From assembly GCA_025210555.1 (NCBI GenBank), contig JAOARL010000008.1, positions 1 to 45,023 on the forward strand: DNA of 45,023 nt. The letters run 5' to 3'. Every line of letters begins with the position of its first letter. Position 1 is the stretch's first letter. Positions 4,752-18,448 of this stretch are shown here, piece after piece. Origin of the DNA: Clostridia bacterium (lineage in GTDB: Bacteria > Bacillota > Clostridia > Lachnospirales > JAOARL01). Both the position numbers and the translations under genes were made by a program. The notes under the pieces were generated by a model, which searched no databases, was not told where the DNA came from, and saw only the letters and a program-made list of their open reading frames with translations.

Positions 4752-4779
4752 TAAAAAAAAGCTACCCTCATGGGTAGCT
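4752..4779 (-). terminator. Terminator of the rubrerythrin-bcp operon
   Basis: Perfect eight-base stem AGCTACCC/GGGTAGCT (4760-4767, 4772-4779) with loop TCAT and an eight-T tail on the minus strand. It includes the bcp stop codon. Confidence 0.95.
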
Positions 4780-5242
4780 AATGTGAGTTTGCAATATAAT
4801 CTAATACTTCTTTTACATGTCCTGGAACTTTTATATTCCTATACTCTTTTAAAAGCTTTCCTTCTTCATCAATTATAAAAGTTGATCTAACAACCCCTTC
4901 ATACTCATTATTAAACATCTTTTTCCACTTCAACACATCATATGCTCTGCAAATTTCTTTGCTTTCATCTGAAAGTATTTCAAAATTTAAATTAAGCTTA
5001 TTTTTAAACTTAATATGTGATTTAACGCTATCTTTACTAATTCCTAAAATAGCTGTATTAAGTTCATCAAAGTCTTTCACATAATCTCTAAAGTTTTCAG
5101 CTTCAAGTGTACATCCAGAAGTATTATCTTTAGGATAAAAGTATATAACAACTTTTTTCCCTAAATAATCTCTAAGTTTTATTTCCTTTTCAGTTCCACT
5201 CATTAAAGAAAAATCTGGAACTTTTTTACCTATTTCTATCAT
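4778..5242 (-). CDS. bcp: Thioredoxin-dependent peroxiredoxin, Bcp type
   Basis: A 154-residue AhpC/TSA-family peroxidase that reduces hydrogen and organic peroxides in the cytoplasm. The start at 5240-5242 has AGGAG seven bases upstream; a reading frame 35 codons longer runs into the rubrerythrin gene and is not homologous. The peroxidatic Cys44 lies in YPKDNTSGCTLEA, and the family motif SKDSVKSHIKF follows. The position that carries a resolving Cys five residues later in E. coli Bcp is Glu-Asn here, so this is a 1-Cys type or uses another Cys, for example in KEICRAYD. It is cotranscribed with reverse rubrerythrin from a PerR-like controlled promoter. Confidence 0.93.
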   Translation of the reverse strand: MIEIGKKVPDFSLMSGTEKEIKLRDYLGKKVVIYFYPKDNTSGCTLEAENFRDYVKDFDELNTAILGISKDSVKSHIKFKNKLNLNFEILSDESKEICRAYDVLKWKKMFNNEYEGVVRSTFIIDEEGKLLKEYRNIKVPGHVKEVLDYIANSH

Positions 5243-5252
5243 AGTATCACTC

Positions 5253-5801
5253 CTATCCGAAGTATCTTTTAAGTAACCCTTCAAATCCTGCACCATGTCT
5301 AGCTTCATCTTTACACATTTCATGAACTGTATCATGAACAGCATCATATCCTAATTCCTTAGCAAGTGTAGCTAATTCTTTTTTACCCATACAAGCTCCA
5401 TGCTCAGCATCTTTTCTTAACTCTAAGTTTTTCTTAGTACTATCTGTAACTACTTCTCCTAAAAGTTCTGCAAATCTAGATGCATGATCTGCTTCTTCAA
5501 ATGCATATCTTTTAAATGCCTCTGCTACCTCTGGATATCCTTCTCTATCAGCTTGTCTGCTCATAGCAAGGTACATACCAACTTCTGTACATTCTCCCAT
5601 GAAATTAGCTCTTAATCCTTCAACTACTCTTTCATCTAAACCTTTTGCTACTCCAACCTTATGCTCATCTGCCCAAACGAGTCCATCAGTTTCTTTCATT
5701 TCTTCAAATTTATCTGCTCCTACTCCACATTGAGGACACATATCTGGTGCCTCTGTTCCTTCGTGGATATATCCACATACCTTACAAATATATTTTTTCA
5801 T
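5253..5801 (-). CDS. Reverse rubrerythrin
   Basis: A 182-residue protein with the domain order reversed from classical rubrerythrin. An N-terminal rubredoxin centre (Cys6, Cys9, Cys22, Cys25 in CKVCGY and CPQCG) is followed by a ferritin-like four-helix domain with diiron ligands in [25 protein letters not shown] and CKDEARHG. Reverse rubrerythrins of clostridia reduce peroxide and oxygen with NADH via a reductase and give oxygen tolerance. The start at 5799-5801 has GGAGG six bases upstream; the earlier in-frame Met is within the leader. It is first in the operon with bcp, 10 bases apart, under a PerR-like operator. Confidence 0.95.
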
Positions 5802-13814: not shown

Positions 13815-13843
13815 TTGACTAACAAAAAAACATATGATATTAT
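13815..13843 (+). promoter_or_regulatory. Promoter of the metal-efflux operon
   Basis: TTGACT (13815-13820), 17-base spacing and TATTAT (13838-13843). Confidence 0.85.
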
Positions 13844-13852
13844 TTTCATATG
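13831..13852 (+). promoter_or_regulatory. ArsR/SmtB-type operator
   Basis: Inverted repeat CATATGA/TCATATG (13831-13837, 13846-13852) with an eight-base centre encloses the -10 box. Position and shape match ArsR-family operators, which are AT-rich imperfect repeats of this kind. The regulator encoded 25 bases downstream is the likely ligand. Confidence 0.75.
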
Positions 13853-13876
13853 AAAAATAATTCATGGGAGGTTTTT

Positions 13877-14206
13877 ATGGGTAATAACATTTGTGATATT
13901 CTTCATGAAGATGCAGTTAAAAGAGTAAAATCTTATCTTGTAAATGATGAAGAAATATTAAAGTATGTTCAGCTTAACAAAATTTTTGCTAACTTTTCAC
14001 GGATCAAGATACTTTTGGCACTTGAAAAGGAAAAGCTTTGTGTCTGTGATATTGGACATATATTAAATATGGAACAGTCTGCTGTTTCACATCAGCTTAG
14101 AATTTTAAAAGAAAATAATTTAATAGTCCCTATTAAGGATGGTAAAGTTATATTTTATACTCTTAGGGACAAAGAAATAATTAACTACATTAGGAGGACA
14201 TTATGA
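13877..14206 (+). CDS. ArsR-family metal sensor, CadC-like
   Basis: A 109-residue winged-HTH repressor. The start at 13877 has GGGAGG five bases upstream; the in-frame ATG at 13850 lies inside the operator. The metal site looks like the alpha-3N site of CadC: Cys55 and Cys57 in KLCVCDIG at the start of the recognition region, with Cys6 and His10 (ICDILH) in the N-terminal arm replacing the two arm cysteines of CadC. The HTH follows (MEQSAVSHQLRILKENNLI). Such sensors release DNA on binding Cd, Pb, Zn or As. It overlaps the permease start by four bases, so it probably controls that efflux gene and itself. Confidence 0.92.
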   Translation: MGNNICDILHEDAVKRVKSYLVNDEEILKYVQLNKIFANFSRIKILLALEKEKLCVCDIGHILNMEQSAVSHQLRILKENNLIVPIKDGKVIFYTLRDKEIINYIRRTL

Positions 14207-15432
14207 TTTTGGATTTATTAAAAGAAATTTTATTTATATTTTTAGAAATATCACCTTATATGCTATTAGGTTTATTTCTTGTAGGATTATTACATATGTT
14301 TTTTTCAAAGGAATTTGTTTCAAAGCATATAGGAACTGATAACGTTTCATCTGTTATCAAATCATCAGTACTTGGAGTTCCTTTACCACTCTGTTCATGC
14401 GGAGTAATACCAACAGCTGTATATTTAGCAAAAAATGGTGCTTCAAAAGGAGCTGTTGTATCATTTTTAATATCAACACCTCAAACAGGTATAGATAGTA
14501 TTATTGCAACATATGGTATATTAGGTCCTATTAGTGCAATTTATAGACCTATAGTTGCATTCATTAGTGGTATTACTGGTGGAATAATTGTTTTATTATT
14601 TGCAAAAGATAGTAAATTAAATATAGAAACTGAAGAGATACACTCATGCCATGGAGGTTCATGTGGATCTCATAAAGAAGAAGAAAAAAAGAGTTTTTTC
14701 AATTATGCATTTGTAGAATTTTTAGATGATATTTCATCACATTTCATTGTTGGAACTATCATAGCTGGACTAATTTCATTTTTTTTACCAGCAGAATTTT
14801 TAATTAAATACAATTTAACATCTGGAATTCATACTATGGTTCTAATGGTTCTTGTTGGTATACCAATGTATATTTGTGCTACATCATCACTTCCAATTGC
14901 AGCAGCATTAATAGCAAAAGGAATTTCACCTGGAACTGCTTTTGTATTTTTAGCGGCTGGACCAGTTACAAACATTGCATCAATTGCAGTACTATCAAAA
15001 GTACTTCCAAAAAAGATTTTAACTATATTTATTAGTGTATCTTCGATATTAGCAATTCTCTTTGGTTTGCTTCTTGATTTTATACTAATTAGATTCAATA
15101 TTGTTATCAACCCTTTCATACACATGCATAATCATTCTGATAACTATTTAAGCCTTATTTCAGGAATTGTTTTTGGATTATTATTAGTATCTTCTATGTA
15201 TAGAAAATACTTCAAAAAAGATCATATAGAGTCAGATGTTTCAATAGAAGTTGAAGGTATGACATGTAATCACTGTGCAAACAACGTTAAGAGTTCACTT
15301 GAAAAACTTAAAGGTGTCAACAGTGTTAATGTTAATCTAGCTTCTGGTATGGTTCATATAAAAGGAGTTAAACTTGATACTGAATTACTAGCAAAGTCAA
15401 TTAATAATTTAGGATACAAAGCAAAAAACTAA
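14203..15432 (+). CDS. SO_0444-type metal efflux permease with C-terminal HMA domain
   Basis: A 409-residue protein. Residues 1-330 hold two blocks of four to five transmembrane helices separated by a cytoplasmic or external loop, the plan of the permease family once called DUF318, to which ArsP and SO_0444 Cu/Zn exporters belong. Cys64 and Cys66 in PLPLCSCGVIPT are the conserved membrane metal-thiol motif. The central loop carries a His/Cys cluster (HSCHGGSCGSH, residues 147-157). Residues 347-409 are a complete heavy-metal-associated domain with GMTCNHC (Cys355, Cys358). The gene overlaps the CadC-like sensor gene. Function is metal export; which metal (Cu, Zn, Cd or As) is not fixed by sequence. 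Confidence 0.9.
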   Translation: MILDLLKEILFIFLEISPYMLLGLFLVGLLHMFFSKEFVSKHIGTDNVSSVIKSSVLGVPLPLCSCGVIPTAVYLAKNGASKGAVVSFLISTPQTGIDSIIATYGILGPISAIYRPIVAFISGITGGIIVLLFAKDSKLNIETEEIHSCHGGSCGSHKEEEKKSFFNYAFVEFLDDISSHFIVGTIIAGLISFFLPAEFLIKYNLTSGIHTMVLMVLVGIPMYICATSSLPIAAALIAKGISPGTAFVFLAAGPVTNIASIAVLSKVLPKKILTIFISVSSILAILFGLLLDFILIRFNIVINPFIHMHNHSDNYLSLISGIVFGLLLVSSMYRKYFKKDHIESDVSIEVEGMTCNHCANNVKSSLEKLKGVNSVNVNLASGMVHIKGVKLDTELLAKSINNLGYKAKN

Positions 15433-15452
15433 GCTAATGCTTAGTTTTTTTA
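15426..15452 (+). terminator. Terminator of the metal-efflux operon
   Basis: Stem AAACTAAGC/GCTTAGTTT (15426-15434, 15439-15447), loop TAAT, then a T run. It overlaps the permease stop codon. Confidence 0.92.
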
Positions 15453-15457
15453 TTTAT

Positions 15458-15532
15458 AAAAAAAGCAAGGAACTAGGCCTTATCCTAATTCCTCGCTCCC
15501 TACCAAAGGGTTATACAGATTATAATACAATT
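15458..15532 (-). ncRNA. Candidate small RNA, about 75 nt
   Basis: A 13-base stem (15465-15477 with 15484-15496) is imperfect on the plus strand (A-C and C-A) but fully paired on the minus strand through two G-U pairs, and is followed there by seven T. This is a strong minus-strand terminator with no minus-strand gene before it. Upstream, at the right distance, lies a promoter on the same strand (15539-15567). The transcript between would be about 75 bases with a small hairpin CCCT/AGGG (15498-15510) and several GGA motifs. It contains no start codon with a ribosome site. No known RNA family was recognised. Confidence 0.6.
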
Positions 15533-15538
15533 ACTTTT

Positions 15539-15567
15539 ATTATATATATATTCTTACTAAATTGTAA
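15539..15567 (-). promoter_or_regulatory. Promoter of the candidate small RNA
   Basis: On the minus strand TTACAA (15562-15567), 17-base spacing, TATAAT (15539-15544). It lies back to back with the kinase promoter, the -35 boxes four bases apart. Confidence 0.65.
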
Positions 15568-15570
15568 GGA

Positions 15571-15598
15571 TTAACTTTATATGTTTTTGTGGTAAAAT
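15571..15598 (+). promoter_or_regulatory. Promoter of the two-component operon
   Basis: TTAACT (15571-15576), 16-base spacing, TAAAAT (15593-15598), giving a leader of about 16 bases with GGAGG before the kinase start. Confidence 0.55.
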
Positions 15599-15620: not shown

Positions 15621-17606
15621 ATGAAAAAAACAAATAGATACTTACAAATATTATTAGTTCTTATTCTTTTAATAATATTTTTAATAATTGCAAATAAAAA
15701 AATGATTTTTAAAATCCCAACTGCCGAAAAAGGTTTGTTGACAGTATCAGCTGAAGATTTTAATCGAGGATATATCCCATTAAAAGGTGATTTCAAAGTA
15801 TATGATGGTATATATAATCCAAATGAACTTAATAATATTAATACAGAAGAAAAGTATATGTGCCTTAATGAACTAAGACGTTATGATTACCCTAGTGGAC
15901 TTGTAACAGCAGTTTTAAATATAGAAATTGAAGATAACTACTTACCAAATGCTATGATTATTGAGGAAATATATACTGCTAATAGAGTTTATATTAATGA
16001 AGAATTAATTAGTAGTGCTGGAAGTATTGGATCTACAATTTCTGATACAATTAAGGAAAAGCGCAGTAATTTTATTCCTTTAAATTTAGATAGTAATAAA
16101 CTTGAAGTAGTTATTCATATAGCTAATTTTGATGAAATTAGTGGCCAATTTGAACGAAATATTTTCATTGGGGATTATGATTCACTTAATACATTTCATA
16201 TAAATAGACTTGTCTTTAAGATGCTAAGTGTTACTTTTTACTTAACTCTATCACTAATATTAATATCTATGTATTTAATAAATAGAAAATATACTTACTT
16301 GCTTACTCTAGCTTTAGCTGGATTAATGAATTTTTACTACATAGTTACACATGTTGAACCTATTATATTATTTAATATAAAAAATACTGTTTATCACTTA
16401 AATAGCATTTTAAGTACCTCACCCGCTATTTTTTCACAGTTCTTTAGTGCTTTAACAGTGTTAGTACTATATAAAAATAATTTTGTATATAACAACTTAA
16501 ATAAATTTATTAAATATAATGTATCATTTTTCTTATTTGTAATGACAATTACTGTTATATTTGATGAAGCTGCTAATCCTTTATATATTTTAACTGTTAT
16601 TTATTCCTTGTGCTTAATAGTTTACTCAGGATCTATAACACTTAAAAACTATATTAGAACTAGCAAAAAAAGTTCATTAATTTTATTAATTGGAATCATG
16701 ATATATGTGCTTTCTTACTCAAACTTAATATACATAAGTGTAATGCATAACCCTTATCAAACACTTGGTCATAGTATGATTTATTTAATTCTAATTCAAG
16801 GTATATTTCATTTAATTATGGCTTACTTAATAATTTCAAATTTTGCTTATAATTTCTTATTAGCACAAACAGAAGAATCAAAACTTGAAAGCATTATAGA
16901 AGATAGAACTAATGAATTAAAAAAATCTTATAACGCCCTACTAAAGCAAGATAATATTAGAAGACAAATGATTATGGATATATCGCATGATCTTAAGTCA
17001 CCTGTAACTATAATTAAAGGTTATCTTGAGCTATTAGTTACTAATAAGATAAAAGATGAAAATAGAGAAGAATATTTAAATATAGCTTATAAAAAAACTA
17101 GTTATATGAGTGATCTAATAAGTGAACTATTTACCCTTTTCAATCTTGAAATAGATAATTCTTTTTCTCGTGAAAAAGAAAACCTTAATGACCTAATAAC
17201 AGATATATGCTCAGGAAGAACTAATGTTAAAGTAGATATTCCTAAGGATTTAGAATTATATTGTAGTGAAAAGCATTTTAGAAGACTTATTAATAATTTA
17301 ATTGAAAATAGTTTAACTCACGGGGGAAATAAATGTCTTATAAATATATCTACTATAAGAGAAAATAGTGACTTAACTCTTATTTTTTCTGATGATGGTA
17401 TAGGTATCCATCCAGAGATAATGCCTTATATATTTAATAGATTTAAGCGTGGTGATAAATCTAGACATGAAAATGAAAAACATTTTGGTTTAGGTTTATC
17501 TATATGTAAAGCCATTGTTGAAAAACATAATGGTACAATTGAATGTGAAAGTATTTTTGGTAAAGGTGCAACATTTAAAATTAACTTAAAAGGAGCAATT
17601 GAATAA
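15621..17606 (+). CDS. Sensor histidine kinase with 7TM-DISM type sensor
   Basis: A 661-residue membrane kinase. The first transmembrane segment (residues 8-25) is followed by an extracellular beta-rich domain (about 30-190) of the kind found in 7TMR-DISM receptors, then a block of about seven helices (195-415). A short coiled linker leads to the kinase core. His456 lies in the H box (MDISHDLKSPV). The N box is LINNLIENSLTHGG, G1 is FSDDGIGI, and G2 is HFGLGLSICKAIV, so the ATPase domain is intact. DISM receptors are thought to sense small extracellular ligands; the ligand is unknown. It is translationally coupled to the response regulator. Confidence 0.93.
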   Translation: MKKTNRYLQILLVLILLIIFLIIANKKMIFKIPTAEKGLLTVSAEDFNRGYIPLKGDFKVYDGIYNPNELNNINTEEKYMCLNELRRYDYPSGLVTAVLNIEIEDNYLPNAMIIEEIYTANRVYINEELISSAGSIGSTISDTIKEKRSNFIPLNLDSNKLEVVIHIANFDEISGQFERNIFIGDYDSLNTFHINRLVFKMLSVTFYLTLSLILISMYLINRKYTYLLTLALAGLMNFYYIVTHVEPIILFNIKNTVYHLNSILSTSPAIFSQFFSALTVLVLYKNNFVYNNLNKFIKYNVSFFLFVMTITVIFDEAANPLYILTVIYSLCLIVYSGSITLKNYIRTSKKSSLILLIGIMIYVLSYSNLIYISVMHNPYQTLGHSMIYLILIQGIFHLIMAYLIISNFAYNFLLAQTEESKLESIIEDRTNELKKSYNALLKQDNIRRQMIMDISHDLKSPVTIIKGYLELLVTNKIKDENREEYLNIAYKKTSYMSDLISELFTLFNLEIDNSFSREKENLNDLITDICSGRTNVKVDIPKDLELYCSEKHFRRLINNLIENSLTHGGNKCLINISTIRENSDLTLIFSDDGIGIHPEIMPYIFNRFKRGDKSRHENEKHFGLGLSICKAIVEKHNGTIECESIFGKGATFKINLKGAIE

Positions 17607-18277
17607 TGAATATCTTAATAATAGACGACGATATAAACATATCAAATATTTTATCAATATCTTTAATAGAAGCTGGCTACAATGCTCAAACATATAATGA
17701 TAGTGTTTCTGTATATAATGATCTTACGAAACTCCAATATGATTTAGTTTTACTTGATATAATGATGCCAAATATAAATGGTTATGAGCTATGTAAAAAA
17801 ATAAGAAAGAATTCGAAAGCACCAATAATATTTATATCGTGTTTAGACGATGAAAATAGTCTACTTAAGGCTCTTGAATTAGGTGGTGATGATTATATAA
17901 AAAAGCCATTTAGTTTATCTGAAGTCTTAGCTAGAGTCAATACTCATATACGACGTTATGAATATATGATTAATCAATCTTCTGAGCCTAAAATCTATGA
18001 ATCTGCTAAGTTTAAATTTAATACCAAGACTAACATAATTGAAACAGCCAATTCTAGTGATCACCTTTCTCCACTTGAGAGCTCACTACTTAAATTTTTC
18101 TTTGAGCATAAGAATTCACTTATGACATATAAGGATATTTATGAAAATATTTGGCATGATGAATACTTAGATGATAAATCTACAATAATGGCCAGAGTTA
18201 GTTACCTTAGATCAAAAATTGGTCCTGATTACATAGAATCAGTTAGAGGAAAAGGTTATATTTTCAATATAAAATAG
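17606..18277 (+). CDS. OmpR/PhoB-family response regulator
   Basis: A 223-residue regulator with a receiver domain (residues 1-115) and a winged-HTH output domain (about 130-222). Acidic Asp7-Asp9, phosphoacceptor Asp51 (LLDIMMPNINGYEL), the conserved Ser/Thr position in IFISCLD and Lys in YIKKPFSLSE are present. The output domain shows LSPLESSLLKFFFEHKNSLM, TIMARVSYLRSKIG and a C-terminal VRGKGYIFNI wing. The ATG shares one base with the kinase stop, and AAAGGAG lies in the kinase tail, so production is coupled. Targets are not apparent; the divergent small RNA and its own operon are candidates. Confidence 0.95.
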   Translation: MNILIIDDDINISNILSISLIEAGYNAQTYNDSVSVYNDLTKLQYDLVLLDIMMPNINGYELCKKIRKNSKAPIIFISCLDDENSLLKALELGGDDYIKKPFSLSEVLARVNTHIRRYEYMINQSSEPKIYESAKFKFNTKTNIIETANSSDHLSPLESSLLKFFFEHKNSLMTYKDIYENIWHDEYLDDKSTIMARVSYLRSKIGPDYIESVRGKGYIFNIK

Positions 18278-18303
18278 AGAGAATAACATATTCTCTCTAT
18301 TTC
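18274..18303 (+). terminator. Terminator of the two-component operon, possibly bidirectional
   Basis: Twelve-base perfect stem (18274-18285, 18289-18300), loop ACA, then TTTCATTT. On the minus strand it lies directly behind the 48-residue gene and is followed by ATTTTATAT, so it may serve both sides. Confidence 0.88.
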
Positions 18304-18448
18304 ATTTATTCATATTTAATTTTTTGTCTCTAATTATTTTTTTTATCTTTTCATTTACACTCTCATAGACTTCCATCTTAGCTTTTCCAGTAGTCTTATT
18401 CTCTGCTGTCATTATTTCCTCTATCAATTCATTTATCTTAGTTTTCAT
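18302..18448 (-). CDS. Very small basic protein, 48 aa
   Basis: A complete small reading frame beginning MKTKINELIEEIMTAENKTT and ending KKIIRDKKLNMNK, all helical and rich in Lys. The ATG at 18446-18448 has GGAG four bases upstream within the end of the preceding gene, and overlaps that gene by 11 bases, a classic coupled arrangement. The stop precedes the 18274-18300 hairpin. No family is recognised; it could be a partner of the 81-residue product encoded before it. Confidence 0.6.
   Translation of the reverse strand: MKTKINELIEEIMTAENKTTGKAKMEVYESVNEKIKKIIRDKKLNMNK

Follow-up and report, generated by a model that had tools for sequence, protein, structure and literature searches.

Genes and Features of the Locus

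The window analyzed here is the whole stretch of 45,023 nt taken from contig JAOARL010000008.1 of a Clostridia bacterium (assembly GCA_025210555.1). The candidate lies on the minus strand between an efflux operon and a two-component system, both encoded on the plus strand. To its left is a gene for an ArsR-type regulator (13850-14206, plus strand). Translation of this gene probably starts not at 13850 but at the ATG near 13877, which follows a GGAGG, because the -10-like hexamer of its promoter ends at 13843. Behind the ArsR gene, positions 14203-15432 (plus strand) encode a Cu/Zn efflux permease of the SO_0444 type, to whose C-terminus an HMA (CopZ-like) domain is fused. From left to right, the features that concern the candidate are the following:

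15423-15450, plus strand: terminator at the end of the ArsR/Cu-Zn efflux permease operon, which converges on the small RNA
15458-15532, minus strand: predicted small RNA of about 75 nt (about 55 nt from a start at about 15512), placed from the promoter and terminator positions
15458-15497, minus strand: Rho-independent terminator with a stem of 13-14 bp, loop AUAAGG and U7 tail, top-ranked of 35 sites in the contig
15498-15510, minus strand: weak 4-bp hairpin CCCU-UUGGU-AGGG (about -5 kcal/mol), immediately 5' of the terminator
15519-15524, minus strand: second -10-like TATAAT, 9/12 with a TATATA -35; the start would be at about 15512
15539-15568, minus strand: promoter-like hexamers CTTACA-18-TATAAT (10/12) or TTACAA-17-TATAAT (9/12), with a common -10
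15553-15568, no strand assigned: imperfect palindrome CTTACTAAATTGTAAG, overlying the minus-strand -35
15571-15598, plus strand: probable kinase promoter, TTAACT-16-TAAAAT with an extended TG
15621-17606, plus strand: sensor histidine kinase with N-terminal TM segment, ectodomain, membrane block, HisKA and HATPase_c
17606-18277, plus strand: OmpR/PhoB-type response regulator

The initial annotation called the sensor a 7TM histidine kinase. Hydropathy makes this plausible, but the protein matched none of the 7TM domain families. The membrane part of the kinase matches no Pfam family, although its layout resembles that of the 7TMR-DISM kinases. An unlisted ORF of 48 aa (18302-18448, minus strand) with a GGAG-like ribosome site is convergent with the regulator gene and shares a terminator hairpin with it.

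A Strong Minus-Strand Terminator Without a Gene

On the minus strand, positions 15497 to 15458 read 5'-AGCGAGGAATTAGG ATAAGG CCTAGTTCCTTGCT TTTTTT or, split at the loop, AGCGAGGAATTAGG-ATAAGG-CCTAGTTCCTTGCTTTTTTT. The stem (15464-15497) is comprised of 13 pairs, or 14 with the outer A-U pair (15464/15497). It includes two G-U pairs and encloses a loop of 6 nt, and the U7 run occupies 15464-15458. As minus-strand RNA, the 81-nt region 15532-15452 folds at -28.2 kcal/mol (z -4.7; shuffles -15.2 +/- 2.8). The plus-strand fold of the same region reaches only -17.3 kcal/mol because both G-U pairs become A.C mismatches there, and the plus strand has no T tail after the hairpin. Sequence and strand-wise folds thus agree with the terminator that was originally described, with its G-U pairs on the minus strand and its U7 tail. 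The asymmetry between G-U pairs and A.C mismatches makes the hairpin suited to act as minus-strand RNA, and it disfavours a DNA-level palindrome or protein site. A plus-strand terminator was also considered and rejected, given the A.C mismatches and the lack of a T tail; the efflux operon has its own separate hairpin at 15423-15450.

How unusual the hairpin is was assessed by a scan of the whole 211-kb contig (the window and the remaining 166 kb) for all hairpins of -8 kcal/mol or lower that run into a T tract. The scan returned 35 sites. The hairpin under study is the most stable of them at -22.3 kcal/mol, followed by one at -17.1 kcal/mol, while each of 12 dinucleotide-shuffled versions of the whole contig contained 0-3 sites, the best of them at -14.0 kcal/mol. 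Nearly all intergenic sites in the contig lie directly behind a gene on the same strand. Three further sites were listed as orphans. Two of these are the backs of bidirectional terminators, and the third (4760) is a missed gene end, namely that of ORF 4778-5347, which was dropped by a simple gene caller. Our hairpin is the sole convincing terminator in the 211-kb contig that has no same-strand gene before it. On the minus strand upstream of it there is no gene before about 18.3 kb, as the initial annotation had held for this strand. The first one met there is the 48-aa ORF that ends at 18302, on the far side of the hairpin behind the regulator gene. The terminator is genuine and is exceptional in having no gene. 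Intergenic small RNAs as a class are recognized by a strong intrinsic terminator outside any protein gene, and this is what is found here.

Promoter-Like Sites and the Source of Transcription

The promoter that was first proposed, TTACAA-17-TATAAT, is present on the minus strand at 15567-15539, but it matches at 9 of 12 positions and is outscored by CTTACA-18 (10/12), which uses the same -10. The back-to-back layout with the kinase promoter was seen as described. The two sites face opposite ways, and their -35 elements are a few bases apart. Promoter matches of 10/12 occur in the intergenic DNA of this 29% GC genome at 1.9 per kb per strand, and about 0.2 are expected in the available stretch. 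Matches of this quality stand at background density, and therefore the promoter match by itself is weak evidence for a transcript. On reading, the predicted RNA has no credible ORF and no start codon with a ribosome site, and the antisense ORF has no Pfam match.

The chief alternative to a small RNA gene is a guard terminator, which would keep antisense or spurious transcripts of the minus strand from running into the efflux operon, while the RNA itself would have no function. We consider this possible, though on the whole unlikely. The hairpin has the convergent efflux operon directly on one side and the kinase gene on the other. Transcription for it to stop could come from further promoter-like sites on the minus strand within the kinase and regulator genes, or from read-through of the minus-strand ORF at 18302-18448, since the hairpin behind the regulator gene has a weak T tail on that strand. 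Another conceivable source is the kinase promoter, if it fires leakily in the divergent direction; such firing is reported to be common among bacterial promoters (PMC10268837, PMC12825309). However, a promoter-like site is present closer to the terminator, and the strength of the terminator is far above that of the others in the contig.

Search for Relatives

The order was sampled with 391 other genomes for a covariance model and 95 for BLASTN; within this sample, the genome of the window alone represents its genus and family. Rfam, searched at gathering and at permissive thresholds, gave no credible family and no score above a curated cut-off, which bears out the original remark that no known family was recognized. 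BLASTN of the region against the 95 other genomes returned only AT-rich or T-tract matches. Those inspected comprised the terminator of a T-box, one at a gene end, and coding sequence. The covariance model was built from the single sequence with both hairpins. With it, neither a second copy in the own genome nor a homologue among the 391 other genomes sampled from the order was found. Its weak matches were mostly ordinary gene-end terminators, alike only in the hairpin-plus-T shape, and the remainder fall within or next to coding sequence; none adjoins this kinase/regulator system. Neither viral contigs (pattern scan) nor plasmids and phages (BLASTN) had a match to the candidate. As far as these data go, the candidate appears to be lineage-specific within the collections searched.

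The two-component system has a similar distribution. Among the 391 genomes of the order there is no close orthologue of the kinase or of the regulator. Elsewhere in the class one full-length kinase was found, which is 24% identical and has no divergent terminator beside it. Judged by these sequence comparisons, the two-component system is lineage-specific among the genomes sampled.

RNA Fold, GGA Motifs and CsrA

The predicted RNA is mostly paired. The bases left free are those of the loops UUUGGU and AUAAGG, plus an AU-rich stretch in the longer form. The initial annotation had pointed to a short CCCT/AGGG hairpin and to several GGA motifs as leaving room for a regulatory role. The hairpin exists at 15498-15510, though it has 4 bp and about -5 kcal/mol. 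Three GGA motifs are indeed present in 48 nt where 1.1 are expected (P about 0.07, not significant), but all three are buried in stems with a pairing probability of about 0.99 or more.

Such motifs bring to mind a sponge RNA of the CsrB/RsmY type that sequesters CsrA. Like these sponges, the candidate contains GGA triplets and has a two-component system adjacent to it. CsrA is encoded in the own genome (1.56 Mb), in which Hfq was not found. However, the sponges display several GGA motifs in hairpin loops, whereas the candidate has only three and holds all of them in stems. Moreover, csrA is part of a flgL-fliW-csrA-flagellin cluster on another contig (C25). FliW is a CsrA antagonist, as established in Bacillus subtilis, and the position of csrA beside fliW implies that FliW serves as the CsrA antagonist here. 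A CsrA sponge is therefore rejected as very improbable. Targets of another kind were sought by duplex energy against the gene starts of the contig, and the energies obtained were about those of shuffled queries.

A Candidate Short Intergenic RNA Gene

The most economical reading of the locus is a discrete, short (55-75 nt) intergenic non-coding RNA gene on the minus strand, and we regard it as probable. It is favoured because the terminator is stable, rare, strand-asymmetric and without a gene, because promoter-like hexamers are suitably spaced from it, and because there is no credible ORF. It is weakened because no homologue was found in the 391 genomes, phages or plasmids, the promoter stands at background density, little of the RNA is unpaired, and complementarity to targets is at the level of shuffled queries. 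In clostridia, searching for small RNAs from orphan terminators is an established approach (PMC3649979). Of 257 intergenic predictions made from terminators in Clostridioides difficile, at a much laxer cut-off of -4 kcal/mol, 46 were seen by sequencing (PMC3649979), and this low rate of confirmation counts against a discrete RNA at our locus.

We infer both transcription and its start site from the positions of these elements. In this reading, a minus-strand promoter back to back with that of the kinase would let RNA polymerase start at about 15532 (or about 15512) and halt at the strong terminator. This would yield an RNA of 55-75 nt that is nearly all stacked hairpins. If the RNA is functional, one may speculate that it most likely works as a small RNA independent of Hfq, with few of its bases exposed. 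A minus-strand small RNA, as initially proposed, thus accounts best for the orphan terminator, but the roles assigned to the kinase/regulator pair and to the GGA motifs are unsupported.

Is the Candidate Controlled by the Two-Component System?

The back-to-back promoters with their neighbouring -35 elements would suggest that the response regulator next door controls the RNA through the common intergenic region, in a geometry like that of RNAIII and agr. Small RNAs controlled by such regulators have precedents in agr/RNAIII, LisRK/LhrC, CiaRH/csRNA and VirRS/VR-RNA (PMC7602753). However, direct repeats of the kind that mark OmpR-type sites were not found in the intergenic region. The palindrome CTTACTAAATTGTAAG was considered as an operator and rejected; its other copies in the genome are all in coding sequence, and it has no second intergenic copy. 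The distant kinase homologue, at 24% identity, is without a divergent terminator as well. We regard regulator control of the small RNA as improbable, and nothing found supports the earlier suggestion that the pair may control the RNA. The same low probability applies to a fuller version, in which a lineage-specific small RNA would be switched by the equally lineage-specific divergent two-component system and would carry part of its output in a genome where no Hfq was found. Nothing beyond adjacency links the candidate to the two-component system. Expression of the small RNA may just follow the divergent promoter, without control by the kinase/regulator pair.

Comparison With Known Small RNAs

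The candidate is an ordinary orphan-terminator small RNA candidate of a known kind and one of many similar. Like the SQ-series small RNAs of C. difficile, it is intergenic, has a strong intrinsic terminator and has no protein gene before it (PMC3649979). One member of that series, SQ1498, adjoins the sensor kinase gene CD2113 (PMC3649979), as the candidate adjoins a sensor kinase gene. SQ1498 is about 150 nt long and was seen on Northern blots, whereas the candidate is a predicted RNA of 55-75 nt without a demonstrated sequence relation to it. The Rfam model of SQ1002 scored 21.9 bits against the region, on the opposite strand and with a cut-off of 128. In Staphylococcus aureus, the promoters of RNAIII and of the agr two-component operon stand back to back (PMC7602753), which is the layout proposed here. 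RNAIII is 514 nt long and codes for a peptide, and its AgrA sites are known (PMC7602753), whereas none of this applies to the candidate.

If the candidate is transcribed, it would be one more small RNA without annotation in a clostridial lineage that is poorly sampled, has CsrA and FliW, and in which Hfq was not found. Were the neighbouring two-component system to control it as well, the locus would offer a simple case for how new small RNAs arise from divergent promoters.
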